A stretch of 64,000 nt of DNA from Zygnema cylindricum (taxonomy: Eukaryota; Streptophyta; Zygnematophyceae; Zygnematales; Zygnemataceae). Position numbers and translations under genes: made by a program. Below are positions 1,343 to 21,805 of the stretch, in pieces. The notes below the pieces were generated by a model that was given only the letters and a program-made list of their open reading frames with translations, did not search any database and was not told the DNA's origin. Each line of letters opens with the position of its first letter. The stretch's first letter is position 1. The stretch is from assembly GCA_037447655.1 (NCBI GenBank), contig JBBHKE010001696.1, forward strand, positions 1-64,000, read 5' to 3'.

Positions 1343-1910
1343 TACTGTCTCCTGATAAAAACTCTAGACATTCCAGCAAAATTTCTTGTGGAGAACTTTT
1401 GTTTTGTATGTGATTGTGACCCTTTTGCCATCTTTGTTTTGCATCCGTCTTTTGTGGAAATCGTAGTCCGGTTTGGTGGTTGGCACTGCTTTTCCTGTTT
1501 GGGCGATTTTGGGACTGGTGTTTGTTGGAAACCGAGAAGGGTCTTGCCGGTTCCGGGTTGCGGAAATCGAGGAGTCAAAGAGGCATTACTTGTTCCGGTG
1601 TCAACAGGAGAGATTTCGTCTCCTCTTGTTGTCAGCGTTACGTTTTGGGGGTAGGTTGAGCTCGTTTGCTATCATTCTACATTCTGTCTTTATTCTCTAC
1701 TTTTCTAAGGGAAGGTGATATTGTTAATTCTGAGACAACATATCTATATTTTATCTTTTCATGATTATGAGTGAAAGTATCTTGTTCTCTCTTTGGTAGT
1801 CCTTTTTGGGGCTTCGGTCGGTTTTCTTCTGGGGTCGATAACCAGAATCTTTTGGACCAAAATAGTGGATTTTGAGGAAATCTTTGTTAGACTTTCATCA
1901 GTCTGCCACA
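1343..1910 (+). repeat. 5' LTR (3' part) of the outer methyltransferase retroelement
   Basis: About 570 bp that is collinear with 20490-21057 at roughly 80-85% identity by eye. Shared landmarks are the 'gtggagaacttttgtttt' block, the 'tttgttggaaaccgagaa' block and the final 'tctgYcaca'. Both copies end in CA and then diverge completely, as expected for LTR ends. The left boundary is unknown. The divergence implies an old insertion. Confidence 0.6.
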
Positions 1911-2100: not shown

Positions 2101-4355
2101 CAGGTGCCCGAGGAACCAGCCCCTTTCGGCTCACTGGCACCCATTGAGCAGTTCCTTAAGGGAATGGTGCCTCCGGCTGTCGCATCTGAGACCTCCCCGA
2201 AGCAGCCACAGGAGAGACCCTCTCCTCCACCTCCACCTGTCTTTTCCCTTGAGAATTTCCCAACTTTGTCCAAAGGTGCCAGAGCCAAGGCCGTGGAGAA
2301 GGCGGAGAGACCTCCATTATTTCTTAAATCACGTAGAAAAGGGTTGGCCCACAAGGAAGCGGTCCCTGGTCACCTCCCCGAAATCGGTCGCTATACCAGA
2401 TCTACGGCCCTTACAGCTGCAATGTACATGGATCTAGAGATACTGGCAGACCCTACCCGGCTAGGTCGGAAAGAAATCTTAGCCCTTCAGAATCTCCAAG
2501 AGTTGAAGGTTAAGAAGGAGTTGGTGCAGCGCGTAGCTAGAACGGATAGAGCTAGGATTGTATGCCCAGTGGGAGGTGTTGTTGAGATACTGAGTAGTTG
2601 ATCTGAGAGCGACTCTTCTACCTCCGTTCGGGAGCAACAAGGGATGCCCTCAATTTCAGGCCAGCATCCCACCCCATCTCTTTACACTGCAACCAGCAGA
2701 CTTTCCAGGTGCAGGGCAACATCTCGAACCCTAGTCGGAGGAGGGATAAGCCAACACGGGTTACCAGAGCAAAAGAGAGTGCATCGGTTCGATCATTGGG
2801 ACCACAAGGGAGGGTTTGCTCCCCGACCTAAAGAGGAGCCATTCTTCCCCTCAGCCTTAATCTCTCCGACCTCCCTATCTCCACCGGCACTAGTTGTTCG
2901 ACCTTCCGAAAGGTTGTGGCGATCTAGACCCACCGATCCCGAGGTACCAGGCTTAGGGATTGCGGATCTCTCGGGGGTAGTGAGCAGCACCCAAAAACTT
3001 GTTGACATTCTGCGATCGCAGAGTGAGGTTACGGCGAGGACCAGACCTATCCCCATAGACTGGGAGGCTCTTCAAAGTAAAAGGAAGGAGGCGCTTGAAC
3101 GGCGACTGCTTCTCATTCGAGAGGCTAAACAGTGGGCAGGAGGAATTCTTAGGGGACACGTAGCTCCTCCTCAGAGGCCAGGTCCATTTGCGGGAAGACC
3201 ACTTCGAGGACAACAACTCCGCATGCAACTTATTCTCCAGGGACTTCACCAGGATCTAGACTGGAATCTCCCTTTCAATCGGAAGGGGAGGAAACCTCAG
3301 GGCCTAACATGATGGGTGTGGGTGCTAATCTACTGCTTGAGTCCGCTTCACTGCCCCAGGGAGAGCCTACCTTTGTCTCAGTAGAGGTTGCTTCCGCCGT
3401 GGAGGCTTGGTGGAGTTACGACCAGACGAGAGGATTCACATTCCCTTGAGGGCATCAACCCCCCCTTCTCCAGCTCCCGGAATACCCTCAGATTTTCCAC
3501 CTTCTCCTCCTTCTCATTCCTTTGACTCCCCGCATCCAACCACGAAGCCCAAGGTCAGTCCTTCTCCACCCGTTTCTCCCGCATCCGTCGTCCTTGGGTC
3601 CCCGGATCCGCCAGTTATACCGTACAAGTAGGACGTACCCGCCTAATCCCCGCGTCATTGACATTCTCCTTCTTCCAGCCCAAGAATTCTACCTTCAAAA
3701 ACTTCTACGAGGCCAAATAGGAGACAGACCCCTTTTTCTACAGGGTCCCAGCAGTCACTGTCCCTGTCTCCGCCACCGGCAATTCCACAAACTTCGAACA
3801 AACCTTGTCTTCACATCCCATCAGTGGAGACAGTTCTAAGAGAGGAACAATACGCTCTTGGATTTAGAGGAGCCAGGAATCTAACTCCTCTTTTATCAAC
3901 CAGCCCATCCTTAGAGGGGGGAAGGATAACATAAGTTTCACCCACCTATCCTAGCGGAGAAGAAGGCGGTCCGGAATTGAAGACATGGATCCAAGGGTCG
4001 TTTCACTGGTTCAATTTGTCAGTCCCACCCGGCCTTCTTCGCCCCAGTTTACCAACCTCGCGGAGGAGGAGAAAATGGGTGACGTAAGGATTTTTACAGG
4101 GGACAGTTCGGGGATCGCTTTCTCAGATTTCGAATTGTTGTGGAAATCTTTCACACAATCCGAGATAGACAAATATAGGGGGGGGCAATTCTAGAGGACT
4201 TCGAAACTACTCTATTTCCTATGATAGTAAATTATCTCGCTGTGGGCGCTATAGCGGATTTCAAAGAGCAACATCCTCTCCGATGGCTCCCAGCATCAAA
4301 ATTTCAAACCCTATCCTTGATGAGGCAATCTTGCAAGCAAAAGCAGACTTGGCGA
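2101..4355 (+). pseudogene. Gag region of the outer retroelement, 5' part
   Basis: A broken coding stretch in several frames. The first piece (2104-2601) is Pro- and Lys-rich. The second (2644-3312) is basic and similar in composition. The third (about 4030-4355) reads as a capsid-like segment with FTGDSSGIAFSDFELLWKSF, then after a frameshift ILEDFETTLFP and FKEQHPLRWLP. The reading frame is cut at 4355 by the young Copia element and resumes after its 3' LTR at 10797, so the two flanks were once one gag gene. I do not recognise a named Gag family. Assignment rests on position between an LTR and a protease, and on the style of the sequence. Internal stops and frame changes show that it is dead. 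Confidence 0.5.
4351..4355. repeat. 5-bp target duplication, left (GGCGA)
   Basis: GGCGA lies immediately before the 5' LTR and again immediately after the 3' LTR at 10792-10796, the 5-bp target-site duplication expected for LTR-element integrase. Confidence 0.95.
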
Positions 4356-5397
4356 TGTAGAAACTAATGGATTTATTAGTATTTTCTAGGTCTAAATAGA
4401 AATATAGAAAGAAGCCGAGGCAGTCTACCTCTAACTTCTCTCTCCAAATCTCAAACTTGTCGCAGTCACTGAGAAATTGGAGAGGAAGCTAGAGCCATGG
4501 CTACCTTGGCTATCCTGAGGTTTACGGGAATTTTATACTAGGGTTTATTTATTTATTTAAAAGGATTGTGCCGGCTGTAGGATTTGATCCTTGAACCTAC
4601 CGGCCGGCAGACAGGAAATAGCCGGTAGCCTTAGCCGTTAGATCTAGCAGAAGTATTACGTGATATACAGTTTGATAATTATATAAATTGGAATACGTAC
4701 AATAATTCATTTAACTGTTACGATTTACGGGATACATAGATTCGGTACGAATGACAGTACGGATTACGAATCAATACCGCGCATTTGTTTCGGAAGTGAA
4801 ATAAATACCGCGCATGTATTTATTACGGCCACGATTAAATCTGAATTTAATCGGACGGCCGGGATTAGCGCCGAGATCGCGGAGGAAGATTTCGGCGGTT
4901 TGTGGCCATCGCCACATCGGATGACGCGTGGCGAAATTCCGTTGGATCGTAGAATCTCTGGAGATTATGGCACCGAATCCGGATTTGACATGTGTCGACA
5001 TTTAGGGCATGTCGTACAATTTCCGTACATAAAGTACACCGGCGGCTGTACTTTTACGTACGGAACTCAATTCTGATTGGTTCCGTACATCAGTAGATAG
5101 AGTCTGTGAGAGAGATAGAACTTAGAAAAATTAGAAGATAGGACCCCCTCTCCCAGAGAGCTTCTGTACAAAAGGTCAACTTTGACCCCCCATAACTTAC
5201 TGCTCAGGGGAGCAAATTCAGAGATTCTTTTTGCTATCGACTCAGGGGAGTCTTGTCTTCACAGGGGTGAAGTTGGTCAGCGTTTTTGTCTGCCAGGGTG
5301 GCAGTTATTTTTGCTTAAACACAAAGGGGTCAGGATTATCCTAGAGACTTCTTGGAAGCTGTCCACTCTGAGGACTTATGGAGGTCTCAGAGTTACA
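4356..5397 (+). repeat. 5' LTR of Copia-1
   Basis: 1042 bp, TG...CA ends, near-identical to 9750-10791. It contains a degenerate tRNA-like stretch on the opposite strand (about 4575-4651) and several GTAC-rich inverted motifs around 5007-5090. It should carry the promoter for the element's RNA, but I cannot place a TATA box with confidence. Confidence 0.95.
4575..4651 (-). other. tRNA-like (Pol III box-like) module, antisense in the LTR
   Basis: On the minus strand this reads AACGGCTAAGGCTACCGG, like a D-arm/A box of a Ser/Leu-type tRNA, then about 30 nt later GGTTCAAGGATC, like a T-arm/B box. The same module recurs at the same relative place in the other LTRs of the family (9968-10045 minus, 14462-14545 plus, 19505-19580 minus, 22540-22615 plus). 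It is too degenerate to be a working tRNA. Confidence 0.45.
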
Positions 5398-5412
5398 GGT
5401 TATGGGCCCACC
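5398..5412 (+). promoter_or_regulatory. Primer binding site, half-tRNA type (initiator tRNA-Met anticodon arm)
   Basis: GGTTATGGGCCCACC directly follows the 5' LTR. It is not complementary to a tRNA 3' end. It is complementary to the anticodon stem-loop of plant initiator tRNA-Met, which reads GGTGGGCCCATAACC, as in Drosophila copia and some other Ty1/Copia elements primed by a cleaved half tRNA. The ATG at 5402-5404 inside it is the likely ancestral gag start. The same site is seen at 17311-17325, 28127-28140 and, decayed, at 21799-21813. Confidence 0.85.
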
Positions 5413-5461
5413 CTCTAGGGTACCAATCTTTAATGGAACTGGCTTCATATACTAGGAAAGT

Positions 5462-8400
5462 ATGATGATAGGAGCTCTATGCGAAAAAAGGTTTTGGGGG
5501 ATAGTGAGTGGACGATTGGGGTGTCCATCAAGTCTTGGAATTCCTCCAGGGTTTGGAGGAAGCAGATTCACCAGGAAAGAGGATTCACCTTCAACGGAGG
5601 AAACAAAGGAAGGAGAGGTGGTGGACAAAGGAAAGGAGAAGGAGGCGACCACACCAATAGCAACTGGTTTAGCATTCATGTCACCTATTCCGAGGAACGA
5701 GGAGAATGATACTGAAACATGGGACTTCAACAATATGGCGGCAAAGCACTTCATCCTACGCCATCTCACTCAAGGACTTGCATGTCCTCATTTGCAGGTA
5801 GAAAGGGCATCCGATCTTTGGATGGCTCTTATAGAGATGTACCGAAGTGGTACGATTCAGCAACAACAGTTGGCTGATCAGAAAGTTAAGGAGTATGTAT
5901 ACAAAGGGGGAAATATGTTGGATTTTTGCAATGAGCTTGCTACACTCTTCATGGAGCTACAGAGTGCGGGAAAAGATTTGAGTGAAAAAGAAAAGGTTAA
6001 CTGTTTACTGATGAAGTTACCTGATGAGTTCGTGAACATAGTTTACCGTGTGCAGGACTTGCCTGACTCAAGGTGGATATGGAACTCAGTGGTAGGAATG
6101 ATTCTCGTTCAAGAGAATACAATTGAGATCCGAAGGGGAGGAAAGAGTGGCCAAGCCTTGGCAACAGCGACTGATTGGAGGAACAGGGATTCCCGAAAAC
6201 CGGTCGGAAACTATGGGGGTAGGGAGCAGAAAAAACCGGCCGATGAGTTCGAACAAAGGGCTCCCAAAGGACTATGTCATTTTTGTAAGAAACCGGGGCA
6301 CTATATGGCAGAGTGCACTAAGCTAACCGAGCTTCGGTTAAAGGAGGGGCAGACCGGTGGTACCCGGAGAGGAAAGAAAAAGGCCCTTGTCACACAGGTA
6401 CTTGAGGCTGAATCCGAGGACGAGGACGATGAGCTCCTTTTGGATGAGGAGTTGGAGGCGAAAAATGAGGTCGAAATTCCACGGAGGCAGAAATGTGCTT
6501 ACGGTGGATTGAAAGGTGAAGCAGGCTGGATTGTAGATTCAGGTGCCTCCATGCACATGTGTAAGGATAGACACCTGTTCACTAAGATAAGAAAGATTCC
6601 CACCGTAGAGATAGAGTACGGGGATGGGAGGATAGTCACCACTACTCTTGTAGGATCGGTAGATCTAAAAGTGTTAGTAGAAGGAAAGACATCCATATTA
6701 ACATTCTCCGATGTATTGTTTATTCCGGAGCTGAACAAAAATCTTATCTCTACATCAGTATTAGATGATAAGGGTTTTTTTACTAGCACTAGGGAAGGAG
6801 TCTTTACTGCTAGTTTTGAGGATGATGTCTATTTCATTGCTGAGAAAGGTAGCCATGGGATGTTTAGGCTGATCTTAAGTAATGAAAAGAAGAAACTTTA
6901 TTATGCTGGTGTTCATGATATTATGATGTGGCATAAGAGGCTTGGGCATGTGAATCTAGATAAGTTAAGAGAGATGAAAAAGATGGGAGTGGTGGAAGGG
7001 ATTCAGTTCAGTGAGAGTGATGATATAAGTGATTGTAGTGGATGTGCTCAAGGTAAAGCACACAGATTACCCTTTCCTAAGTCAGCCACCTATAAGGGAG
7101 AAAAAATTCTAGATCTAGTACACAGAGATATTTGGGGACCGGCTAAAGTGCCCTCACCGGGGGGGAAGAGATTTATGATGACTATAACTGATGATTGGTC
7201 TCGGTATTCCCGGGTATATTTTTTGAAAAACAAGTCCGAAGCTGAGGATTGTTTTAGACAATATAAAGCATGGAACGAAAAACTCCATGAAACTCCAATC
7301 AAGAGAGTAAGGAGTGACAATGGTGGAGAGTATACTTCTAACCAGTTTGAGGATTTTCTGAGGGAAGATGGGGTTCAACACCAAAAGACAGTTCCAGAAA
7401 ATCCTGAACAGAATGGGGTAGCTGAGAGGTTAAATAGAACACTAAGTGATAGTGCTAGAAGTATGTTGTCAGATAAAAGGATAGGGAAAAGGTTTTGGGC
7501 AGAAGCAATGAACTGTGCTAATTACCTCAAGAATAGAGTTCTTACTTCAGCTATAAAAGATCAAACACCTTATGAGAGATGGACAGGCCGGAAACCAGAC
7601 ATATCTCACTTAAAGGTTTTCGGCAGTCAAGTGTTCAGTCTAGATACTGATCGGTCTAATTGGAAGCTAGATCCTAAAGGAAAACCAGGATACTTATTAG
7701 GATATGATGAAGATGTTAAAGGATATAGAGTTTATGATCTAAAAAGGGAAGATATAATCTTAGTAAAGCATCTAGTAGTTATGGATGAAGGAAAGTCTGT
7801 AGATCCCTTCAAATATACGAAGTCAGTAAAAATCAGATTTGAGTCAGAAAATTCCGATGACTTTGAGCTTCCTAACTATCCAGGTTTTAGAGAAGATGAC
7901 ATTCTTGCAGGAACAAATCAGACTGAAAAGGACTCGGCTGTGGAAACTCCAGTGACAACTCTACTCGAAGCGGAAGACGTGGTGGAAATTGATTCGGAAT
8001 CAAGGGATAGGGGAGAAGCCGAGTTTGTTCGAAAGAATCCACGAGAACCATCTATTCCGGCCTCAGATTTTGAGGGGGGGAGGAGAAGTAGCAAAAGACT
8101 GCAAGAAAAACAGGTTAATAACAAGGTAACTAAACTATCTCATCAAGATGAACCTCAAACTTATGGAGAGGCGATGACTTGTCCAGAAAGAAACCGGTGG
8201 AAGACAGCCATCAATGAGGAGATGGCTTCAATCATGGCAGCCGATACTTGGGAGCTGGTGGACTGTCCACCTAACCGAAAACCAATCGGTTGTAAGTGGG
8301 TTTTCAAACTAAAACTGAACCCAGATAACACAATCGAGCGCTACAAGGCCAGATTAGTGGCAAAGGGATTTACACAAAAGGAAGGAATTGACTACGAGGA

Positions 8401-9736
8401 AACCTTTGCCCCGGTGGTCAGATTTCCCTCCGTCCGCATACTTCTCAGTTTAGCGGCGGCGGAAGACATGGAATTGCACCAGATGGACATCAAAACAGCC
8501 TTTTTGCATGGAGAATTGGAAGAGGAGATCTTCATGCGACAACCCGAAGGGTTTGTGGAAGAAGGAGAGGAGAGTAAGGTATGCCGGCTGATTAAATCTC
8601 TTTATGGTTTGAAACAGGCACCTCGACAATGGAATAAGAAGCTTGATGAGTTTCTTACCGGTCTGGGATATATTCGGATCAGCTCAGATCACTCAATCTA
8701 TGTTTTCGAAGATGAGGAAGGTTTGATATTTATTGCAATTTATGTTGATGATTTGCTTGTATTAAGTAAATCAATGGAAAAAATTAACAAACTGAAAACC
8801 GATCTTAAGGGGAGATTTGTAATGAAGGATATGGGAGAAGCAAGATATATTTTGGGAATTCAAGTAGAGAGAGACCGAAAAAGGAAAATTATAAGATTGA
8901 CTCAAAAAGAAGCAATAGGGAACATGCTTGAAAAATTTCAAATGGATAAAGCTAATAGTTGTACAACTCCAATGGAGTTGAAGAAGGGAAGTGAGGGGAG
9001 TGAGGAAGAAGGAGTCATAGTCTTAGACGAGGAATTATCTCCTGATGAACAGAAGTTCATGCAGACTATTCCTTACAGGCAAGTAGTGGGAAGTCTAATC
9101 TATTTTATGAATTGTACCCGGCCGGATTTAGCTGCAGCTGTAGGAATGCTGAGTAGAAGTCTAAATGCTCCCACTAAGAAGGATTGGGAGGCAGCTAAGA
9201 GAGTCCTGAGATACTTGGTAGGAACTAGAGATCTATGGTTGCATTTGGGTGGGGAGAATACTGACATCACTACTTGGAGTGATGCCAGTTATGGTGATGC
9301 TCCGATGAGGAGATGTACTTCTGGATATGTATTATATGTGGGTGATGGGGCTTGCTGTTGGAGTAGCAAACAGCAAAAGGTTATTGCTCAGTCCACCATG
9401 GAGGCTGAGTATATGGCCTCTTGCTCTGCTGTAAAAGAATTGATGTGGGTCAAGTCTTTGCTTGGTGAGCTTGGTCACCTTAAGAGTGGTGTGCAGAAAA
9501 TATTTTGTGATAATCAGGCAGCAATCGCTATTTCTGCCAATCCTAAACATCATTTTAAAGCCAAACACATGGACATCAGACTTAGCTTTGTTAGAGAGAA
9601 AGTAGAAAACAAAATAATCAGTTTAGAGTACAAACCAGATAGTGAGATGGTAGCAGATATGATGACCAAACCTGTGCCTTCCCCTAAGCTAATTTTTTGC
9701 AGGGAGAAGTGTGGTCTGAAATTAAAGATTGACTAG
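5462..9736 (+). CDS. Copia gag-pol polyprotein
   Basis: A 1424-codon single frame encoding the proteins for reverse transcription and integration. Visible in order: Gag (UBN2-type) about residues 75-210; zinc knuckle CHFCKKPGHYMAEC about 271-284; aspartic protease WIVDSGASMHMC about 356-367; integrase HHCC zinc site (WHKRLGH ... CSGCAQGK, about 489-533) and DDE core with D near 553, D in SDNGGEY about 617 and E in NGVAERLNR about 652; reverse transcriptase from about 913 with YVDDLL about 1094; RNase H with WSDASYGDAP about 1272, MEAEYMA and DNQAAI about 1353. The true Gag start is probably the ATG at 5402 inside the primer site. From there the same frame meets TAG at 5453-5455, where related copies have Trp, so this copy may rely on readthrough or on the downstream ATG at 5462. 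Everything else looks intact. Confidence 0.95.
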   Translation: MMIGALCEKRFWGIVSGRLGCPSSLGIPPGFGGSRFTRKEDSPSTEETKEGEVVDKGKEKEATTPIATGLAFMSPIPRNEENDTETWDFNNMAAKHFILRHLTQGLACPHLQVERASDLWMALIEMYRSGTIQQQQLADQKVKEYVYKGGNMLDFCNELATLFMELQSAGKDLSEKEKVNCLLMKLPDEFVNIVYRVQDLPDSRWIWNSVVGMILVQENTIEIRRGGKSGQALATATDWRNRDSRKPVGNYGGREQKKPADEFEQRAPKGLCHFCKKPGHYMAECTKLTELRLKEGQTGGTRRGKKKALVTQVLEAESEDEDDELLLDEELEAKNEVEIPRRQKCAYGGLKGEAGWIVDSGASMHMCKDRHLFTKIRKIPTVEIEYGDGRIVTTTLVGSVDLKVLVEGKTSILTFSDVLFIPELNKNLISTSVLDDKGFFTSTREGVFTASFEDDVYFIAEKGSHGMFRLILSNEKKKLYYAGVHDIMMWHKRLGHVNLDKLREMKKMGVVEGIQFSESDDISDCSGCAQGKAHRLPFPKSATYKGEKILDLVHRDIWGPAKVPSPGGKRFMMTITDDWSRYSRVYFLKNKSEAEDCFRQYKAWNEKLHETPIKRVRSDNGGEYTSNQFEDFLREDGVQHQKTVPENPEQNGVAERLNRTLSDSARSMLSDKRIGKRFWAEAMNCANYLKNRVLTSAIKDQTPYERWTGRKPDISHLKVFGSQVFSLDTDRSNWKLDPKGKPGYLLGYDEDVKGYRVYDLKREDIILVKHLVVMDEGKSVDPFKYTKSVKIRFESENSDDFELPNYPGFREDDILAGTNQTEKDSAVETPVTTLLEAEDVVEIDSESRDRGEAEFVRKNPREPSIPASDFEGGRRSSKRLQEKQVNNKVTKLSHQDEPQTYGEAMTCPERNRWKTAINEEMASIMAADTWELVDCPPNRKPIGCKWVFKLKLNPDNTIERYKARLVAKGFTQKEGIDYEETFAPVVRFPSVRILLSLAAAEDMELHQMDIKTAFLHGELEEEIFMRQPEGFVEEGEESKVCRLIKSLYGLKQAPRQWNKKLDEFLTGLGYIRISSDHSIYVFEDEEGLIFIAIYVDDLLVLSKSMEKINKLKTDLKGRFVMKDMGEARYILGIQVERDRKRKIIRLTQKEAIGNMLEKFQMDKANSCTTPMELKKGSEGSEEEGVIVLDEELSPDEQKFMQTIPYRQVVGSLIYFMNCTRPDLAAAVGMLSRSLNAPTKKDWEAAKRVLRYLVGTRDLWLHLGGENTDITTWSDASYGDAPMRRCTSGYVLYVGDGACCWSSKQQKVIAQSTMEAEYMASCSAVKELMWVKSLLGELGHLKSGVQKIFCDNQAAIAISANPKHHFKAKHMDIRLSFVREKVENKIISLEYKPDSEMVADMMTKPVPSPKLIFCREKCGLKLKID

Positions 9737-9749
9737 AAAATAAGGGGAG
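9737..9749 (+). promoter_or_regulatory. Polypurine tract of Copia-1
   Basis: Purine run aaaataaggggag immediately before the 3' LTR, the plus-strand DNA primer. The same sequence with small changes precedes the 3' LTRs of the other copies (19301-19315 plus; 14778-14792 minus). Confidence 0.85.
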
Positions 9750-10791
9750 TGTAGAAACTAATGGATTTATTAGTATTTTCTAGGTCTAAATAGAAATATA
9801 GAAAGAAGCCGAGGCAGTCTACCTCTAACTTCTCTCTCCAAATCTCAAACTTGTCGCAGTCACTGAGAAATTGGAGAGGAAGCTAGAGCCATGGCTACCT
9901 TGGCTATCCTGAGGTTTACGGGAATTTTATACTAGGGTTTATTTATTTATTTAAAAGGATTGTGCCGGCTGTAGGATTTGATCCTTGAACCTACCGGCCG
10001 GCAGACAGGAAATAGCCGGTAGCCTTAGCCGTTAGATCTAGCAGAAGTATTACGTGATATACAGTTTGATAATTATATAAATTGGAATACGTACGATAAT
10101 TCATTTAACTGTTACGATTTACGGGATACATAGATTCGGTACGAATGACAGTACGGATTACGAATCAATACCGCGCATTTGTTTCGGAAGTGAAATAAAT
10201 ACCGCGCATGTATTTATTACGGCCACGATTAAATCTGAATTTAATCGGACGGCCGGGATTAGCGCCGAGATCGCGGAGGAAGATTTCGGCGGTTTGTGGC
10301 CATCGCCACATCGGATGACGCATGGCGAAATTCCGTTGGATCGTAGAATCTCCGGAGATTATGGCACCGAATCCGGATTTGACATGTGTCGACATTTAGG
10401 GCATGTCGTACAATTTCCGTACATAAAGTACACCGGCGGCTGTACTTTTACGTACGGAACTCAATTCTGATTGGTTCCGTACATCAGTAGATAGAGTCTG
10501 TGAGAGAGATAGGACTTAGAAAAATTAGAAGATAGGACCCCCTCTCCCAGAGAGCTTCTGTACAAAAGGTCAACTTTGACCCCCCATAACTTACTGCTCA
10601 GGGGAGCAAATTCAGAGATTCTTTTTGCTATCGACTCAGGGGAGTCTTGTCTTCACAGGGGTGAAGTTGGTCAGCGTTTTTGTCTGCCAGGGTGGCAGTT
10701 ATTTTTGCTTAAACACAAAGGGGTCAGGATTATCCTAGAGGCTTCTTGGAAGCTGTCCACTCTGAGGACTTATGGAGGTCTCAGAGTTACA
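9750..10791 (+). repeat. 3' LTR of Copia-1
   Basis: 1042 bp, same ends as the 5' LTR, followed by the right target duplication GGCGA at 10792-10796. After it the interrupted gag frame of the outer element resumes. Confidence 0.95.
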
Positions 10792-10796
10792 GGCGA

Positions 10797-12080
10797 TAGC
10801 TGCAGCTACTCCTGTCACAGCCACCTTCACAGATGACATCAAACTGCAGGCACAAGGTCGCGCCTATGTCAACCAGCTTTAGGCAATCGAGGCCGCCAGA
10901 GCAGCCATTCGGATGGTTGCAGATCCTACACCCTGTACCACTCCTTTGAACACCTGGAGGCTCCTTTACACCCAAAGGAATGAATCGGCTATGAAGGAAT
11001 ATACGAAATTTCGTTGCCGTCCTACCCCCCAATCCGAAACTGCATAAATATCACAAGCCCAGTTGCGACAGATCAAACTTCCAAAATTTGATAACGCGCA
11101 AATCTCCAACGAAGTGAGGGGCAAATATACCACTAAGGGTTCCAAGTGTGAGGCTACCAGCTTCATGGGTCACAAGGAGGGGCAGTGTTTCCGGAAGAAT
11201 GGGGTCCCAAAGGAGATGATGCAATATGCACTGTTTACCGGCGGAGGTGAAACTACCATGAATCCTCTCCCCCTGCAACTTTTTTACCATTGGGGACGCA
11301 GTACCACGGAAGAACCAGAATGACAGCCAACATGTCAAGCAAGACTCACCTCGAAGATTATCATCCTACAGCAGAGCCAGCAAATGGCCGCCATGGCAGC
11401 AAAATTGGCTGCCCTGCAATTAGGATCCCCCTCTCTGACTCCTACTCTGACGGCCGCTCAAAATCTCCACCGAGAAAACAAGAGTTGTTATAGAAGCTGG
11501 CCGAAAATGAACAAGAAACGGCGGCGGGCAAAGATGATGACAATGTGATGGGGTGGGACATGGAACCTCCTAAATCTCATCATGCACAAACCTTCCTTTC
11601 TGGAGCCTGGAATGTGGGTGTGGGAGACTGTCGCATGCAGCTTTGTAACTCGACCTCAACGCAAACAAGAGACAAGCAAAGACTAGCTCAAGGAGACCAC
11701 AACAGTAACACTACGGGACCTTTGAGCTTCACCCTAGAGCCATCATTCTGAACAACAAAATAGGTCTCGCAATCAAACCCACAAACCCGCCACCTCTGGC
11801 CGCAAAGAAATTGCCTCCCAGATTCGAGAATTACAGGACGACTAACACCAAGGAGATGGAAAAACAAGCAAAGAAGGAAGAAAAACAAAATAACCAAGAC
11901 TGGTTCGAAAACTATTTGGCGGAACGTCTGAATTATACCACACCCGAAACGCCACCCGAAAAGGAATCAGACCAGAAAAGTGAGGAAACCAGAGGTGGGG
12001 AGCACGAAAAATCGGAGGAACCAGCCGATTCCCCATTTCGTCGCCAAAAACTCAACCCCCTTCCTCCAAACCAGCAGTGA
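10797..12080 (+). pseudogene. Gag region of the outer retroelement, 3' part
   Basis: Continuation of the frame cut at 4355. The first part reads IAAATPVTATFTDDIKL and AYVNQL, has one internal stop, then a long basic stretch (LPKFDNAQISNEVRG at about 11090). A Gln/Ala-rich segment (MAAMAAKLAALQLG) lies near 11390. The end (11811-12080) is very charged, Lys/Glu/Pro-rich. Several stops and frameshifts break it. I do not see a convincing CCHC zinc knuckle. Assigned as Gag from its position before the protease. Confidence 0.45.
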
Positions 12081-12272
12081 TGTTCGTAAGGCATCTAGTG
12101 CCCTACGCCCTCACTCACGTGAAAACACTGGCATCTTCCCATAACTTGCTGGAAGAAATTCTCATCCAGGCCCTCGGAGAGGAGATTCACTCGAGGGGAG
12201 AACAAATATCAAGCCAATCAGGCCAGATCCGTCTTTTGGTCAGCAGACCCAAAGACATCTATGACGGATAGG

Positions 12273-12716
12273 GATTATAAAACGTTATCTGTGGCGCTAA
12301 TACTCAATAAGACGGGAAATTTCAAACTCAACAGATACAGCAAATAGAATGACGCGGTTGTTGATAGCGGAGCACTCCCAAATCTAATTACCACATCAGC
12401 TTTGTAGCAAATGCCTGAAGAACTCCGACCGGAAATCTCCCCCAGTAACATCTGCATAAGCATTGTTAGCAGTGGGAGCTAGTCTGTCCATAGAATAATC
12501 AAAGCTATGTTAATTGAGTTCTCCGATGACACGGGTCAGAAGGTCCGATTTCAGCTTCCCTTCTAGGTGGTGTAAGGTAAGCAGTTTGAATATCTGCTGG
12601 GAATGGCCACCTAGACAAGGTTGAATATGGGATTAAGTGTGTGGAAGGAGCAGTTTACTGTTCGGGATCTTGAGGATTCGGAAGGGGTCAAGATGGTGGT
12701 CCCCCTAGATCTATGA
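12273..12716 (+). pseudogene. Retroviral-type aspartic protease of the outer retroelement (broken)
   Basis: One frame with several stops reads VVDSGALPNLIT (catalytic D-S-G at 12363-12371). A flap-like stretch ending VHRIIKAMLIEFSDDTG follows, then EYLLGMAT and LNMGLSVWKEQFTVRDLED, which resembles the C-terminal 'ILGMDFL' region of retropepsins. Such a protease would cut the polyprotein during particle maturation. The stops make it non-functional. It supports an LTR retroelement, probably Ty3/Gypsy-like, although no RT or integrase of this element remains in the window. Confidence 0.6.
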
Positions 12717-12840
12717 AATTGGGGGAAAAACAATGCTCCGTAGCCATTCTTATCTTGTCTATGCAACCCACACTCCCACAGAAATGCTCGCCAGCGCCCC
12801 CGATATCGGAGATGTTATAAAACAATTCCCTATTTCTAAG

Positions 12841-13605
12841 CGGTGAGAAATGGGATACCGGACCAGATTAAGACAGATAACAACACTTCGGCGGGAAGTG
12901 GACCAGTCATTTGCAGCTGTATTTACCAAGGAGAAAAAGCCTCGCACAGAATCTTCGAAGGCATTATCATCGGAGGGGCCACCCAAGCATCCAATATTCT
13001 ATTGACAATTGGTGTCATTATCACTTCCGGATTCGGGTCTCCGGATATTATCCTTATTTTGTGGAATGAGCTCAGACCTAGAGGTTGTATTGAAAGCAAG
13101 ATATAAAGTGGAGTATTATGTGGCCGTGGAAATCTCACCTTGGACTTGGGCCGTCACTGAACACCGACTACAACACCTCCACCAATTATATCCCCAACAA
13201 CTTCCAGTATCCGCCATCTGCAGATCTCACCGAAGCCTTCCACAAAACATAGACAATATCTTCAAACCTCATCTAGCTATGCTGGATCGATTAGATCTGG
13301 TAATAGCAAGAAGGCCATGTCAAAGATACTCTCTAGCAAGGAAAGGCGAGGGACATCAAGACAGCAGAAGTCGAACCTTCTTCAAGATGATCAAATTAAT
13401 TTCTTGACAGTAGCAGTCCCAAGACACACCAGTGGGGTACGTTTTGGAAAATTTTCACCAGGGAGATGACAAAAGAAAATAGGTCACCCATAGTTGGAAT
13501 CAAGTCAAGCAAATTCTAGGAGCTCCACTTGTTTTCGATGCAGTGGAAATGGGATCAACGGCTCACAGAGTTCGCGCGTACTGGACCAACTTGATACCTT
13601 TGTCA
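12841..13605 (+). pseudogene. Cytosine-5 DNA methyltransferase-like domain in a retroelement (broken)
   Basis: A single frame interrupted by about five stops (13000, 13405, 13411 and about 13480 among them) carries C5-methyltransferase motifs in order. Motif I is LRILSLFCGMSSDLEVVLK (SAM-binding Phe-x-Gly loop). Motif II is KVEYYVAVEISPWTWAV. Motif IV is LDLVIARRPCQRYSLARKGEG with the catalytic Pro-Cys-Gln, followed by SRSRTFFKMIKLI. Motif VI is YVLENF. The motif VIII/IX region is LGAPLVFDAVEMGSTAHRVR, then AYWTNL. The spacing and the HRxRAYWTNL ending resemble the Dnmt3/DRM type. Such enzymes methylate cytosine in DNA using SAM. It follows the protease with only a frame change and lies within the LTR-bounded element, so it looks like retroelement cargo. 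Capture by a nested insertion cannot be excluded. The stops mean that this copy is dead. Confidence 0.72.
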
Positions 13606-13659
13606 GCTTGATACCTATGTCAGTCCTAAACCAACTCTTAAAGAACCACAAGACCGATC

Positions 13660-14777
13660 TGCAACTTTGAGACCTCCATAGGACCTTAAAGTAAGTAGCT
13701 CACACAAAGCCTCTAGGATAACCTTGACCCCTTTGTGTTTCAGTAAGAAAAACTGCCACCTTGGCAAACAAAAACTTTGACCACATTTACCCTTGTGAAG
13801 GCAAGACTCCATTGAGTCGATAGCAAAAAGAGTCTCTGGATTTGCTCCCCTGAGCAGTAAGTTATGGAGGGTCAAAGTTGACCTTTTGTATAGATGCTCT
13901 TTAGGAGAGAGGGTCCTATCTACCAATTTTTTCTAAGTCCTATCTCTCTCTCAAACTTTATCTACTAGTGTACGGCACTAATCATATTACACTGCCGTAC
14001 ACAAAAGTACAGCTGCCGGTGTACTTCATGTACGGATATTGTACAACATGGCCTAAATGACGACACATGTCATATCCGGATTCTGTCCCGTAATCCCCAA
14101 AGATGTCGCGATCATACGTAATCGTGCCACGTGTCATCTCATGTGACGATGACTAGAAACCGCCGAGAATCTCTTCCGCGATCTCGGCTTTCTTTTCGAC
14201 CGTCGGATTGAATGCAAATTTCAATCGTAGCCGTCATAAATGCATGTGCGGTATTTGTTTTGTAAAATAAACAAAATGCGCGGTACTCGTTCTTTATCCA
14301 TACCGAAATCCGTACATTTACATAACTGGATCTATGTATCCGTAAACATCCGCCGTTAAATGAATTTTCCTACGTGTTAACATTTAAATAAATATCAAAC
14401 CCTTTAGTATGTATCGTAACGTGTTGACATTTAAATAAATATCAAACCCTTTAGTATGTATCGTAACGTCTAGACTTAACGGTTAAGGCTACCGACTACC
14501 GGCCTTCTGACGATCGGCAGGTACGAGGATCAAATCTTGGTTCAGACATACTCCTTTTAGTAAATAAACCTACCTATCTGTAAATCAACTAATCTATTTC
14601 CTGTAAACCTCTAGATAGCCTAGGTAGCCATGGCTCTAGCTTCCTCTCAGACTTCTCGGTGACTGCAACAAATGTGGGAGTTTGGAGAGAGAAGTTAGAG
14701 GCAGACTACCTCGACTTCTTTTTTCTATATCCCAATTTAGACCTAGAAAATAATAAAAATAACCATCGGTTTCTACA
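13660..14777 (-). repeat. 3' LTR of Copia-2
   Basis: Recognisably the same LTR family as Copia-1: same ends, same 'gagacctccat' terminal block, same tRNA-like module at 14462-14545. It contains a 47-bp direct tandem duplication (14372-14418 and 14419-14465) that Copia-1 lacks. Confidence 0.9.
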
Positions 14778-14790
14778 CTCCCCTTATTTT

Positions 14791-16383
14791 CTAGTCAATC
14801 TTTAATTTTAGACCACACTTCTCCTTGCAGAAAATTAGTTTAGGGGAAGGCACAGGTTTGGTCATCATATCTGCTACCATCTCACTATCTGGTCGATACT
14901 CTAAACTGATTATTTTGTTTTCTTGTTTCTCTATAACAAAGCTGAGTCTGATGTCCATGTGTTTGGCTTTAAAATGATGTTTAGGATTGGCAGAAATAGC
15001 GATTGCTGCCTGATTATCACAAAAAAAATTCTGCACACCACTCTTAAGGTGACCAAGCTCACCAAGCAAAGACTTGACCCACATCAATTCTTTTAGAGCA
15101 GAGCAAGAGGCCATATACTCAGCCTCCATGGTGGACTGAGAAATAACCTTTTGCTGTTTATTACTCCAACAGGAAGCCCCATCACCCACATATAATACAT
15201 ATCCAAAAGTTTATCTCCTTATTGGAGCATCACAATAACTAGCATTACTCCAAGTAGTGATGTCAGTATTCTCCCCACCCAAATGCAACCATAGATCTCT
15301 AGTTCCTATCAAATATCTAAGGACTCTCTTAGCTGCCTCCCAATCCCTCTTTGTGGGAGCATTTAGACTTCTACTCAGCACTCCTACAACTGCAGCTAAA
15401 TCCGCGCGGGTACAATTCATAAAAGAGATTAGGCTTCCTACTACTTGTTTGTAAGGAATAGTCTGCATGAACTTCTGTTCTTCTATTCCTCATCAAAGAC
15501 TATGACTCCTTCTTCCTCACTCCCCTCACTTCCCTTCTTTAACTCCATTGAAGTTGTTCAACTATTATCTTTATCCATCTGAAATTTTTCAGCATGTTCC
15601 CTATTGCTTCTTTTTGAGTCAATCTTATAATCTTTCTTTCTCGGTCTTTTTCTACTTGAATTCCCAAAATATATTTCGCTTCTCCCATATCCTTTATTTC
15701 AAATCTCCCCTTAAGATCAGTTTTCTGTTTATTAATTTTTCCATTGATTTACTTAAAACAAGTAAATCATCATTATATAAATTGCAATATATATAATACC
15801 TTCCTCATCTTCAAAAACATAGATTGAGTAATCTGAGCTGATCCGGATATATCCCAGACCGGTAAGAAACTCATCAAGTTTCTTATTCCACTATCGAGGC
15901 GCTTGTTTCAAACCAAAAAGGGATTTAATCAGCTGGCATACCTTACTCTCCTCTCCTTCCTCCACAAATCCTTCAGGTTGTCGCATGAAGATCTCCTTTT
16001 CCAATTCTCCACGCAAAAAGGTTGTCTTGATGTCCATCTGGTGCACCTCCATGTCTTCCGCTGCTGCTAGACTGAAAAGTATGCGGACTGAGGGAAATCT
16101 GACTACCGTTGCAAAGGTTTCCTCGTAATTGATTCTTTCTTTCTGTGTAAATCCTTTTGCCACTAATCGGGTTTTGTAACGCTCAATGGTGTTATCCAGG
16201 TTCAGTTTTATTTTAAAAACCCACTTACTACTGATTGGTTTTCGGTTAGGTGGACAGTCCACCAGCTCCCAGTATTGGCTGCCATAATTGAGGCCATCTC
16301 CTCATTGATGGCTGTCTCCACCCGTTCATTTCTAGACAAGTCATTGCCTCTCTATAAGTTTGAGGTTGATCTTGATGAGATAG
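14791..16383 (-). pseudogene. Copia RT/RNase H remnant
   Basis: Minus-strand pieces closely match Copia-1. 16262-15891 is the RT front (NRKPISSKWVFKIKL ... HQMDIKTTFLRGELEKEIF). The middle is broken by frameshifts, including a 2-bp gain at the YVDD catalytic box near 15770. 15468-15211 and 15189-14791 carry RNase H motifs (TRADLAAVVG, STMEAEYMASCSA, DNQAAIAISANPKHH). The end, KCGLKLKID, is identical to Copia-1. Clearly dead. Confidence 0.9.
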
Positions 16384-17310
16384 CTCTAATCGTTAAGTCT
16401 AGGAGTAATATTGCGATGTATAGAGTTTGATAAATATTTAAATTGTTACACATAGATTAATTTGCTTAACGGAGAATAGATACTTAGTGCATAGGTACAG
16501 TTGATTTAGTACACAGTACGGTATGGGGACGAAACGGATACCGCGCATTTGTTTCCATAACGAAACAAATACAGCGCTTTGAATTTCAGCGGCTAGGATT
16601 ATAGCTGGTTTTGATCGGATAGCCGCAATAGGCGCCGCGATCACGGAAGAGGTATTTTTGGCGTTTTTACGGTCTTTGCCACGTCAAATGTCACGTGGCG
16701 TGAAAACATTGGATTACGTGAACTCTAGAGATTACGGGAACAAATCCTGATTTGACACGTGACGACATTTTGGCCATGTTGTACAATGGCGGTACAGAAA
16801 GTACACCGACACCTGTACTTTACTATACGACACAATAATTTGATTGGTGCCGTACTTCACTAGATAGAGTTTTAGAGGGGGAGTGGACTTAGAAAATTCT
16901 GGGTAGGTAGCTGCCTAACCCAGAGAGCACCTTGTATAAATGGCAAACTTTGGCCAGCCATAACTATCAATTTACTTGACCATTTTCAGTGATTCTTTTT
17001 GCCGCGGACTCACGTGAGTCTAGGCTACACAGGTGGGTAGTCGGTAAGAGTTTTTGTTTGCCAGGGTAGCTGCATTTCTAAGGGAAACTCAAAGTGGGTG
17101 AATGTGTCCAAATCTCATGTTTTAATTTTGCATTTTGTGGTGGAACCGAGCACACAGAAAGTGTTATTTCACAGGGGTGAATCTATATTGGGGTTCTGAC
17201 TGTCAAGGGGTCAGTCATTTGGGTTTATATCAAGTTAGGAGTGGGCACTATCTAGATTAGCTTGTTTGGATCTGCCTACTCTTGTGGCCAATGGAGGTCT
17301 CAAAGTTTTA
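16384..17310 (+). repeat. 5' LTR of Copia-3 (left end missing)
   Basis: Collinear with 19566-20489 of the 3' LTR ('aagtctaggagtaatatt' onward). The first ~250 bp of the LTR are absent because of the junction with Copia-2 at 16383/16384. Confidence 0.88.
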
Positions 17311-17325
17311 GGTTATGGGCCCACC
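17311..17325 (+). promoter_or_regulatory. Primer binding site of Copia-3
   Basis: GGTTATGGGCCCACC, identical to Copia-1. Its ATG (17315-17317) opens the gag frame MGPPSRVTMF. Confidence 0.85.
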
Positions 17326-18799
17326 ATCTAGGGTGACTATGTTCGATGCAATAGACTTCACTTGTTGGGAGTTTCCTATGGAGGGATTGCTTGTCGAGAA
17401 GCACTTATGGGGAAATGTTTCGGGACAAGTGAGGTGTCCCCCACTAGGCTTTGGAGGAACTCACTGTGGAGAATCATCTGGGGCTGCCCAGAAAACCAAC
17501 CAGAGTTCAGATGCAAAGGATGGTGAAGGGAAAATCATTGCCATAGAAAGGGAAAATTGGTAGAAGAGAAAAGGAACACCGATGGTGAGGGGAGCTAGGC
17601 TCTCGACTATGGTTCCACTTGTACGGATTACAACTAAAACTGAAGAAAGTGACATTAAAATCCGGGAGTATAAAAACACCATAGCAAAGCATCTCATACT
17701 TAGAAACGTATCTAAGTCTATAGCTATCACTCTTATAAATATATCCAAGTCTTTAGAGATATGGGAAACACTAAGTCAGATTTATAAGAGTGAAACTATT
17801 TAGAGGCAACAATTAGTAAAACAAGAAATAGATGCCTATGTTTATAAAGGCGGTAGGATGATAGATTTTTGCAATGATATTGTTGCGTTATATGTTGAGC
17901 TTCCTAGTGCAGGATATGTAGAATCTGAGGAGAGAAATATTAATATATTACTCATGAAACTCCCAGATGAGTACGAAAACACCATTTGTCGTATGCACGC
18001 AATTGATGGTTCCTCAAAGACTTCGAGCTTTACCATGGGGATAATTCTTGTGAGGAAAAGCACTTTGGAGCTTCGTAGGGGAAGTGACAGGTTGAATGCA
18101 TTTACAGCTGGTGGTGATTGGCAGAAGCGTGATGAGAGGAACGACGGTGATTGGCGGAAGCGTGATGAGAGAAACGGTGGTGACGAGCTGAAACGTGATG
18201 AGAGGAAGAAAGACAAAGGTAAACCTTATCGGATCTTTGGTGGAAAGAGAGGGAGAGGAAAAGAAAGGGGAGCTTTGAAAAAGGGGGTTTGCTTCTTTTG
18301 TAGGGAACCGGGTCATTATATGGAGGAATGCCCTTGTTTGGAAAAACTTAGATGTTGGAATGTGAATGAGGAGGAAGAAGGGGAAGAGGAGAAAGAGGAT
18401 GAAGATATTTTAGAGCTTCTCCGAATTAGTAGTATGGGGAAGAGAGAAAAACACACAAAAATTCCACAAAAGCAACAGTGTGCTTTTCGAGGTATAAGGG
18501 AAGTAAAGAGAGAGGAGGTACTTGAGGATGTCGAGGAGTGTAGAGTGTATGACTTAGAAATGAGAAAGTTTGATCTAGGATCCATATGTGAAAACGGGAA
18601 AGATAAAATTAATGAGGATAATTTTATTGATAATAGGGAAACAGAAAACTTGTTGGAAAAGGAGACTTCAACGGATTCCGAGGAAAAGGGAGAATTGAAA
18701 CTCGAAGAGGTTTTAAAGGATAGGGGAGAAGAGAAATACTTGATTAAAGGTTTAGGGGAGAAGAAATATTTATTGGGAATTAAATTAGAAAGTGAATAG
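17315..18799 (+). pseudogene. Copia-3 Gag (two in-frame stops)
   Basis: A single frame beginning at the primer-site ATG (MGPPSRVTMFDAIDFTCWEF) with TAG at 17561 and 17801. The last open part (17858-18799) keeps the Gag core (MIDFCNDIVALYVELPSAG, INILLMKLPDEYENTI), a run of three Arg/Asp/Gly-rich repeats (DWQKRDERND-like) and a zinc knuckle CFFCREPGHYMEEC. It ends in an acidic tail fused by deletion to EKKYLLGIKLESE from the RT end. The repeats expand the basic linker before the zinc knuckle relative to Copia-1. Confidence 0.85.
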
Positions 18800-19043
18800 A
18801 GGAAAGAATTCCATGGGAGAGAGTGAGGAAAGTTCAGAAAATGGGGTAATTATCATGGATAAAAATATGAGTACGGAAGATGTAGATCTTATGAGGAACT
18901 TAGTGGGGACTAGTGTTTTTTGTATATATTTGGGGGTGGATGGATTTGACATCACTACTTGGTGTGATGTTGCTTGTGAAGATGTGCCTGCAATAGGGTT
19001 ATCATCCGGGTATGTGTTCCAAGTTGGGGATGGGGCTGACTAA
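18792..19043 (+). pseudogene. Copia-3 RNase H remnant
   Basis: Short frame with ENGVIIMDKNMSTEDVDLM (like Copia-1 EGVIVLDEELSPDEQKF) joined to YLGVDGFDITTWCDVACED and SGYVFQVGDGAD, matching the RNase H entry of Copia-1. Catalytic segments after this are gone. Confidence 0.8.
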
Positions 19044-19315
19044 TGGAAATCCAAAAGGGAAAGTAGATTTTGGTTGGATGAAAAGGTGAGGAGGTGAATA
19101 AAATCTTTGATCAGATTTATGATAAGTGGGGTGCTAAATGAAATGTGTGATGCAATTATTATTTCAGTTCATCTAATGCATTGTTTTAAATACGAGAGTA
19201 TTTTTCTTAAGTTTTATAAAAGGAAAAAGAAAAAAAGGAAAAGGAAATAGGGGGAGGAGTGTTTGTTTATTTGTTTGTAAGATGTGAAAAGAAGTAGACT
19301 AGAAAATAAAAGGAG

Positions 19316-20489
19316 TGTTGATATTTGAGTATTTTCTAGGTCTTTATAGAAAAAGAGCAAAGGCACTCTGTCCCTGACTCCCTTCTCCAAGCCCCCAAAC
19401 TTGTTGTAGTCACTGAAAGCTTGATAGGGAGCTAGAGCCATTGCTGCCTAAGCTCACTAGAGAGGACATGGGGTGGATTAGGTAGATTTACAAAAAGGTA
19501 CTTGACGGATCCAGATTGATCTTGGTACCTAGCGTCCGTCAAGCTACCGTAGCCGTTAGCTCTAACCGTTAAGTCTAGGAGTAATATTGGGATATATAGG
19601 GTTTGATAAAAATTTAAATTGTTACGCGTAGATTAATTCGCTAAACGGAGAATAGAAACTTAGTGCATAGATACAGTTTGATTTAATACGAAGTACGGTA
19701 TGGGGACGGAACAAAAACTGCGCATTTGTTTCGATAACGAAACAAATACCGCGCGTTGAATTTCAGCGGCTAGGATTATAACCAGTTTTGATCGGACGGC
19801 CGCGATAGGCGCCGCGATCACGGAAGAGGTATTTTTAGCGTTTTACGGTCTTTGCCACGTCAAATGACACGTGGCGTGAAAACATTGGAAAACGGGAACT
19901 CCGGATATACGGGAACAAATCTTGATTTGACACGTGACGACATTTTGGCAATGTTGTACAATGGCGGTACAGAAAGTACACCGCACCTGTACTTTACTGT
20001 ACGACACAGTAATTTGATTGGTGGCGTACTTCAGTAAATAGAGTTTTAGAGGGGGAATAGGACTTAGAAAATTTTGGGTAGGTAGCTGCCTCTTCAGAGA
20101 GCACCTTGTATAAATGGTAAACTTTGGCCAGCCATAACTATCAATTTACTTGACCATTTTCAGTGGATTTTTTTTGCTGCAGACTCAGGGGAGTCCAAGC
20201 TACAAAGGGGTGTAGTCGGTCAGATTTTTTGTCCGCCAGGGTGAGTGCATTTCTAAGGGAAATTCAAAGTGGGTGAATGTGTCCAAATCTCATATTCTAA
20301 CTTTGTATTCTGTGGTGGAGCTGAGCACACAGAAAATGTTATTTCACAGGGGTGAATCTATATTGGGGTTTTGACAGTCAAGGGGTGAATCATTTGGGTT
20401 TATATCAAGTTAGGAGTCGGCGCTATCTAGATTAGCTTCTTTGGATCTGCCTACTCTGAGGGCCAATGGAGGTAGGTCTCAGAGTTTCA
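19316..20489 (+). repeat. 3' LTR of Copia-3
   Basis: Starts TGTTGATATTTGAG after the polypurine tract and ends GTTTCA. The region 19566-20489 matches the truncated 5' LTR. An antisense tRNA-like module lies at about 19505-19580. The two LTRs differ at many sites, so this copy is older than Copia-1. Confidence 0.85.
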
Positions 20490-21057
20490 GTACTGTCTTC
20501 GAGAAAATATCTAGAAATTCCAACAAACTTTCTTGTGGAGAACTTTTGTTTTATATGTGATTGTGACCCTTTTGCCAATTCGTTTTGCATCCGTCCTTTG
20601 TGGAAATCGTAGTCTGGTTTGGTGGTTGGCACTACCTTTCTTGTTTGGGCGATTTGGGACAGGTGTTTGTTGGAAACCGAGAACGGTCTTGCCGGTTTGG
20701 GGTTGCGGAAACCGAGGAGTTAAGAAGGCCTTACCTCTTCCGGTGTCTTCGGAAGAGATTTCGTCTCCTCTTGTTGTTAGCGTTATGTTTTGGGGGTAGG
20801 TTGAGCTCGCTTGCTATCATTCCACATTCTACCTTTTTTCTCTATTTTTTCTAAGGCAAGGTGATATTGTTAATTCTAAAACAACATATCTATATTATAT
20901 ATTTTCATTATTTTGAGTGAAAGTGTCTTGATTCTCTCTTTGGTAGTCCCTTTTGGGGCTACGGTCAATTTTCTTCCGGGGTCGATTACCAGAATCTTTT
21001 GTACCACAATAGTAGATTTTGAGAGAATCTTTGTTAAACTTTCATTAATCTGTCACA
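20490..21057 (+). repeat. 3' LTR (3' part) of the outer methyltransferase retroelement
   Basis: Collinear with 1343-1910 and ends in CA at the same point ('tgtcaca'). Together the two define the extent of the old element. Its pol genes between 13606 and 20489 have been replaced by Copia fragments. Confidence 0.6.
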
Positions 21058-21320
21058 AAATCAGGATAAAGGACTCCGTTACCCATAATTCCATCCATTT
21101 TTCCGGCCCGGTGGGAAAAAGTTGGGGAGGAGATATCTTTTCACCCTCTCATGCACTCGTCCCACTTTCCGCATCCATGTTCATGGGAGAAAGGCGGGCA
21201 CCAATGGGCATGGGCATTCTAATGGAAAGCAATCGCATTCTAAGGGGTTGTTTGTAGGACTCCGATGCTGATTACTCAAGGTAGTGGGCCCTCCTCTCAT
21301 GTCTCTCAGGCACGCTCGAC
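21058..21320. other. Unassigned spacer
   Basis: No gene or repeat recognised. It separates the old LTR from the break point of the next Copia fragment. Confidence 0.3.
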
Positions 21321-21805
21321 AGAAGGTATAATTTCTTAACTTCTGCTCTGCCAAATGGAGCTCTTGAATCGTACCAGCTATATAGATCTCCATCAAACTC
21401 ACCCACAACTCCTCGCTCTTGTAAACCTGAAGATGGGGAATTGCCAAAGCTTGAGTGAGGTGTCTCAGAATGAATTTCTTAGCAACCATATTGGTGTCAT
21501 CCCACATTTAGGTGTCGTTCTCCCCTGTCTTCACGATCGCCGCTCTGGGTGCCGTAAGTGGTGTCTCCTTTTCTTTCCCCTTTTCGGACATATCGCTATC
21601 CCTCTCATCTGCCTCCTCTGTTGTAGGAGATCATGTTGCAGAAAAAACCTTATTTCAATAAACCCTGGTGGAGTTCCCTAAGGTGGATGTTTCACTTTTC
21701 CAGTGACAATACCCCAGTATCGTTTTTCACACAAAGCCCCTGTCATCATGGCTTCCCAATAAATGAGCCCAGATCCATTAAAGATGGGCACCCTAGAGGG
21801 TGGGC
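21320..21805 (-). pseudogene. Copia-4 Gag N-terminus
   Basis: Reads GPPSRVPIFNGSGLIYWEAM, then MTGALCEKRYWGIV, and after a stop and frame change DDTNMVAKKFILRHLTQALA and SLMEIYIAGTIQELHLAEQK. The ATG inside the primer site has become ATC. This copy has Trp (TGG) where Copia-1 has TAG, which shows that the Copia-1 stop is a mutation. Broken and truncated. Confidence 0.85.

Follow-up and report, generated by a model that had tools for sequence, protein, structure and literature searches.

In the 64,000-nucleotide stretch of Zygnema cylindricum DNA analyzed here (hereafter the window; contig C1271 of the genome searched), positions 12823-13602 encode a decayed C5-cytosine methyltransferase (MTase), which stands directly behind a retropepsin (PR) within a truncated Ty3/gypsy element. 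The element has been broken up by a young Ty1/copia insertion and two older copia pieces (Table 1). The initial annotation had taken 1343-1910 and 20490-21057 as the two LTR pieces of this element. The repeat pair is real but its description was incomplete: the left repeat A1 covers 727-1910 and a further repeat, B2, follows A2, and the two pieces are not a plain LTR pair but parts of split direct repeats. Positions 974-2108 align with A1 and the region beyond it in another copy, on contig C1374. The LTRs of the young copia element have BLAST bounds of 4356-5399 and 9750-10793, and the sequence GGCGA flanking it on both sides puts its end at 10791. Within the third copia-type element, matches to copia gag and zinc-knuckle domains at 17804-18799 stay below the cut-off. 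Rfam and tRNA scans of the window gave no match. Elsewhere in the window, an exon-like ORF at 48109-48510 matches PurA (E 2.8e-9).

Table 1. The MTase element of the window and the elements inserted in it
Feature	Position	Strand	Remarks
A1, the left terminal repeat of the MTase element	727..1910	+	begins with TGTCAAGCTCGTGTGC, differing at 1 base from the start of A in another copy
First internal ORF remnant, gag-like by position	2110..3189	+	no Pfam match; 67% to the 377-aa ORF of L032, E 2e-134
Second internal ORF remnant, first part	3243..4354	+	tblastn pieces to the 716-aa ORF of L032
Young Ty1/copia element inserted in the MTase element	4356..10791	+	intact 1426-aa ORF 5456-9736; LTRs 99.5% identical
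Second internal ORF, resumed after copia	10793..11209	+	71-78% to residues 373-447 and 648-716 of the L032 ORF
Decayed retropepsin	11988..12740	+	56% to the PR ORF of L032, E 3e-74
N-terminal pol piece with decayed MTase, assigned to Dnmt3 type	12823..13602	+	PF00145; 61% to intact pol residues 1-256
Second copia element, 3' half, reverse insertion	13659..16383	-	84.9% to 8135-10792
Third copia-type element	16381..20490	+	LTRs 16381-17311 and 19557-20490, 89.6%
Right repeat A2, 5' part missing	20490..21057	+	88.6% to 1336-1910
Terminal repeat B2, right end of the element	21058..21321	+	abuts A2; ends CAGGCACGCTCGACA; last 15 bases equal B of another copy

MTase motifs standing in order in one frame behind a retropepsin had been the core of the initial annotation, and they are found there: in a single frame, with the translation read by eye, motif I lies near 13039, PCQ (motif IV) at 13315-13323, ENF (motif VI) at 13447-13455 and AHRVRAYWTN (motif VIII) at 13561-13590. 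The Pfam profile PF00145 matches the ORF at 13006-13407 (E 4.1e-6; 26.9 bits against a cut-off of 22), and the check with stops masked as X, which had been proposed at the outset, gave E 6.7e-7 for a stretch of 216 residues. With the pol frame of an intact copy as query, the remnant is a single tblastn piece (E 2e-94) and nothing aligned past residue 256; RT, RNase H and integrase (IN) of the MTase element were not found in the window. The MTase is cut off ahead of its last motifs, and stops interrupt its frame at 13405, 13411 and 13480, with a further one at 13609, while the motif IV Cys, the motif VI Glu and the motif VIII Arg are still present. In a direct Pfam search, the retropepsin of the window reached 0.16 with Asp_protease_2, below the cut-off, an NCBIfam search gave dcm-type matches only, all below cut-off, and a protein search with the decayed window query retained none of 88 candidates at E 0.001. 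That the remnant is an MTase and that it belongs to the element, taken as one joint claim, is hardly in doubt.

The genome searched comprises 352,776,454 bases in 2689 contigs. A protein search of it (1149 first-look candidates) returned at least 150 MTase matches including the window, all with E 3.4e-48 or better and many with stops, and the codons for GWPCQG occur at 200 sites, the reversed control giving none. Sixteen copies were fetched as 10-kb pieces which, having been picked for long frames, are a non-random sample, and 20 short loci were added. The search for less decayed copies was rewarded with two in which pol is a single open frame of 1520-1525 aa with the order MTase-RT-RNase H-integrase, preceded in another frame by PR, whose match is just below cut-off. 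In both pol frames, Pfam places the MTase at about 70-250, RT at about 600-768, RNase H at about 826-960, and the integrase zinc finger and core at about 1090-1264; the PHD match at the end is weak and stays under the Pfam cut-off in both (2.4e-4 and 0.0044). Matches of the RT include the Ty3-G Gag-Pol chain (5.3e-77) and an enzymatic polyprotein which we take to be caulimovirus-like (1.5e-55).

The MTase element has the terminal plan A1-coding-B1-GC-A2-B2 with no plain LTR pair, and its insertion bounds, A1 on the left and A2-B2 on the right, appear by their layout to be unlike those of standard LTR retrotransposons. In copy C1374 the order is A1 (1186 bp), coding region, B, a 3.7-kb stretch, a second coding end with B, GC, A2 and B2; the coding end and B are present twice, 3.7 kb apart (L032 and L050; contig C1374 31305-35679). 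Copy C544 has A-coding-B only, plus an inverted A-B unit upstream. The 4-mers flanking its units match crosswise (GTTC/GAAC, AGCT/AGCT) and never directly, as expected from an inversion between two insertions, which is what the opposite orientation of the units suggests (L047 and L031; contig C544 116589-132288). The B-A junction was found at 198 genome sites (control, 0). Its spacer is 2 bp long in 98 of 100 listed junctions (GC 63, GT 15, AC 11), GT and AC possibly being products of decay of GC, and GACA-GC-TGTC at the junction is a perfect palindrome. As for target duplications, ends were fetched for 10 further copies and both ends were seen in four. Among six copies read at both outer ends, exact 4-bp duplications are present in two (TCCT, GAAT) and three of four bases agree in two, while no duplication is found in C1374 (CCGT, GAGG) or in the window (GCAC, GAAG); these two copies may be rearranged. 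Among 16 loci scanned, L031, L032, L038 and L044 have a purine tract ahead of B; in the two copies examined for a tRNA-type primer site, no TGG occurs within 50 nt downstream of A1.

What type of enzyme does the element carry? DRM and Dnmt3-type MTases are both C5-MTases of the wider Dnmt3 group, and the initial annotation had left the choice open as "Dnmt3/DRM-like". In plant DRM methyltransferases the motifs are rearranged, whereas the motif order of the intact element MTase is not. Among solved structures, DNMT3A chains are the best sequence matches, at 2.6e-13 versus 0.0016 for DRM2, and on these grounds the DRM type was rejected. An AlphaFold model of the intact MTase (pLDDT 90.1) retrieved 239 PDB matches at E <=0.001, the best 50 of which are all DNMT3 entries (best E 1.9e-20). 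Phage methyltransferase families also match the intact MTase (phrog_116, 4e-20). By sequence and predicted fold, the intact MTase is assigned to the Dnmt3 type and not to a rearranged DRM, so that only the former part of the earlier label is retained. Of 35 copies, 34 retain the catalytic Cys and 30 the motif VI Glu.

A search with the intact MTase yielded 42 long proteins from 4502 candidates, the named ones being four from Marchantia and one from Klebsormidium nitens. A profile of eight domains gave 541 matches; one Apatococcus and two Scenedesmus entries are among the 120 listed, and pieces of MTase and of integrase are combined in one Scenedesmus protein. We take the Marchantia relatives to be liverwort sequences and those of Scenedesmus and Apatococcus to be chlorophyte ones. 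In viral_contigs, 10 loci were retrieved with 23-40% best-segment identity. The rows of the MTase trees were chosen by length and found using our own MTase domains, with DNMT3A as a single partial long row. In a quick tree of 95 rows, the retroelement-type MTases made up a single 80-row clade (SH-aLRT 100), separate from DNMT3A and from 14 rows of prokaryote type, our copies and Klebsormidium falling in a 20-row clade at 94. A careful tree of 34 rows repeated the retroelement clade (100/99) and placed our copies with P0003, P0004, P0009 and Klebsormidium in a 7-row clade (96/93), P0003 being nearer to them than Klebsormidium. In both trees this DNMT3A row grouped with the prokaryotic ones and not with the retroelement clade, among rows that include no plant DNMT3. 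The 23 proteins having MTase, RT and IN show two domain orders, MTase-RT-IN in six (two of them our own copies) and RT-MTase-IN in 17. An RT tree of 24 rows splits the two orders (100/99), and in the MTase tree the MTase-first rows make up one side of a branch, weakly (46/66). That RT-MTase-IN is a green-plant order is drawn from the Scenedesmus piece. P0012, P0015 and others read RT-RNase H-MTase-integrase-PHD; in P0012 and P0015 the PHD match clearly exceeds the cut-off.

Is the MTase really a part of the element? Seen on its own, the window copy is broken and has three copia elements around it, as might a host DNMT3 pseudogene or fragment that was hit by retroelements and came to neighbour their coding regions by accident. 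However, copy L032 is colinear with the window across the ORFs, PR and MTase, and MTase, RT and integrase share single open frames. Moreover, when 100 listed B-A junctions (of 198) were compared with 150 listed MTase matches, a same-strand MTase match was found within 15 kb upstream of 35 junctions, none on the same strand downstream and two on the opposite strand. The distance is 4547-4824 bp in 24 of these 35, and such strand-biased, fixed spacing indicates that the MTase is a fixed part of the element unit. Given the many copies, the single-frame MTase-RT-IN and the fixed linkage, an origin as a host pseudogene was rejected; its probability is vanishingly small. The claim that the element carries the MTase is borne out, and neither of the outcomes named against it at the outset, a missing PF00145 match or a domain lying outside the element unit, occurred. 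It might also be asked whether the MTase is only a hitch-hiking passenger, kept through its position in the Pol frame. dN/dS was estimated in two subfamilies of 6 and 10 among the 16 fetched copies, those with more than one stop within a domain being left out. Since dS between subfamilies is saturated and the same copies recur in several pairs, the medians are rough bounds: 0.07 for the MTase (34 of the 60 pairs could be used), 0.15 for the linker (45/60), 0.03 for RT (36/60), 0.04 for IN (12/60) and 0.07 for the C-terminus (21/60). Within subfamilies the MTase has 0.27 and 0.32 and other parts range from 0.07 to 0.85, as decaying copies would give. The between-subfamily dN of the MTase (0.185) is above that of RT (0.053), as might be expected of a passenger; yet its dN/dS of about 0.07 is still low, and divergent relatives, too, retain the catalytic motifs. 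Judged from these ratios, with dS saturated, the MTase is under purifying selection between subfamilies, and a mere passenger seems quite improbable.

How, then, would an MTase serve a retroelement? The likeliest role, which we propose tentatively, is methylation of the element's own cDNA. The enzyme would act on this cDNA in the particle or in the nucleus and add de novo methylation before or at integration, and the new copy would arrive resembling silent host DNA, a look that may shield the cDNA and lower the host's cost per insertion. The PHD-like end behind the integrase, given its weak PHD match, might steer insertion to chromatin with particular histone marks, and integration might start from a circular form opened at the palindrome. 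Self-methylation, looked for as CpG loss, left no element-specific signal when pieces with the MTase were compared with MTase-free copia: for the two main 10-kb pieces CpG o/e is 0.645 and 0.671, eight further pieces range over 0.597-0.689, and the copia has 0.676, the value for 22001-64000 of the window being 1.042. This result, as well as a predicted fold that is that of a DNA-binding Dnmt3, would also suit an MTase that acts elsewhere than on cDNA, on host or competitor DNA or on element RNA, or that is mainly a DNA-binding domain. Against such a role, most of 35 copies retain the catalytic Cys and Glu, so that catalysis probably matters, and the position in Pol would put the MTase beside the cDNA; we consider it somewhat unlikely. 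With methylation of its own cDNA included as the proposed role, the window element is probably a dead, truncated copy of a multicopy Ty3/gypsy element that has a Dnmt3-type MTase between protease and RT. A more far-reaching reading would join all of these features: green plants would long have carried one gypsy lineage with a captured Dnmt3-type MTase in two orders (MTase-RT-IN and RT-MTase-IN), its circle opened by a DDE integrase at a fixed GACA-GC-TGTC, with DIRS-like split ends, 4-bp duplications and pre-methylated cDNA. As a whole this is unlikely, and it is made less likely by copy C1374, which also has no matching target duplication.

The initial annotation had regarded such an element as new or little known, which holds in part, since a relative has been reported from Klebsormidium nitens. 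According to the available parts of that report, KnitGypsy-Dnmt3 has a Dnmt3-type MTase in a gypsy Pol ORF, DIRS-like repeats and an MTase under purifying selection; a yeast assay of the enzyme showed no activity, a result its authors call inconclusive; and the capture of MTases by retrotransposons is described as having happened independently in dinoflagellates and in one charophyte alga (de Mendoza et al., 2018; PMC5890265). Our element resembles it in the order MTase-RT-RNase H-IN (KFL_009030040), in gypsy RT/RNase H with a DDE integrase, in the A-coding-B-A-B split repeats as far as these are described there, which C1374 has with an extra duplicated stretch, and in an MTase likewise apparently under purifying selection and grouped with the Klebsormidium sequence. 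It differs in its host and in its MTase, the identity being 37%, and it has a weak PHD match at the C-terminus as well as a palindromic junction and 4-bp target duplications. In dinoflagellates, SymbioDIRS-Dnmt3 and SymbioLINE-Dnmt also hold a cytosine MTase inside a retrotransposon, but they are described in the same partly available source as DIRS with a tyrosine recombinase or as LINE (PMC5890265), whereas ours has a Ty3-like RT and a DDE integrase; eight ORFs scanned gave no phage-integrase domain at E 0.1 or better and an rve integrase instead. Related MTases of 39-44% identity are found in Marchantia (Mp_4g09160, MARPO_0063s0090, _0204s0011 and _0020s0163), on a separate MTase branch and with no RT domain listed in the same protein. 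These are "hypothetical" at NCBI; Mp_4g09160, in which two knuckle-like cysteine motifs can be made out by eye before the MTase, has a CCHC-type name in UniRef. Algal elements with a ParB-like and methyltransferase protein such as Sola1-1_Ec32 are likewise mobile elements bearing a DNA methyltransferase, but, in the available part of the source, they are DNA transposons with a predicted N4-cytosine or N6-adenine enzyme, ours being a C5 enzyme (PMC12477816).

No report of a retroelement MTase in a land plant was seen in the open-licence literature searched, as far as its texts were available, and within the same bounds the spread is wider and the termini are more detailed than found described. 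What appears to be new is the abundance in the host genome, the occurrence of a single MTase lineage in gypsy-type elements that differ in domain order, of which there are two, and the combination of a DDE integrase with DIRS-like ends that carry target duplications. The element type is abundant in its host genome and has named relatives in a liverwort and in chlorophytes, and the sampled MTases make up one clade; together these point to an old association of MTase and gypsy, and not to a curiosity of one lineage, in hosts that use methylation to silence transposons. The question why an element carries an enzyme normally used against it is thereby opened to direct test.

The genome holds other loci of some interest. 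One of them encodes a CP24-like protein; for another, a tandem LHCI chain comes first and the antenna chains 5xnl_3 and 7oui_2, which we take to be LHCB3, are the next closest. CP24 and LHCB3 are land-plant antenna proteins. The RuBisCO large subunit had no match, and the C-terminus of dynein heavy chain, looked for as a possible indicator of motile sperm, had one (6.7e-12). Clusters of many light-harvesting family matches lie on contigs C519, C2590, C610 and C1077, and the weaker matches on C610 and C1077 may be ELIP-like.
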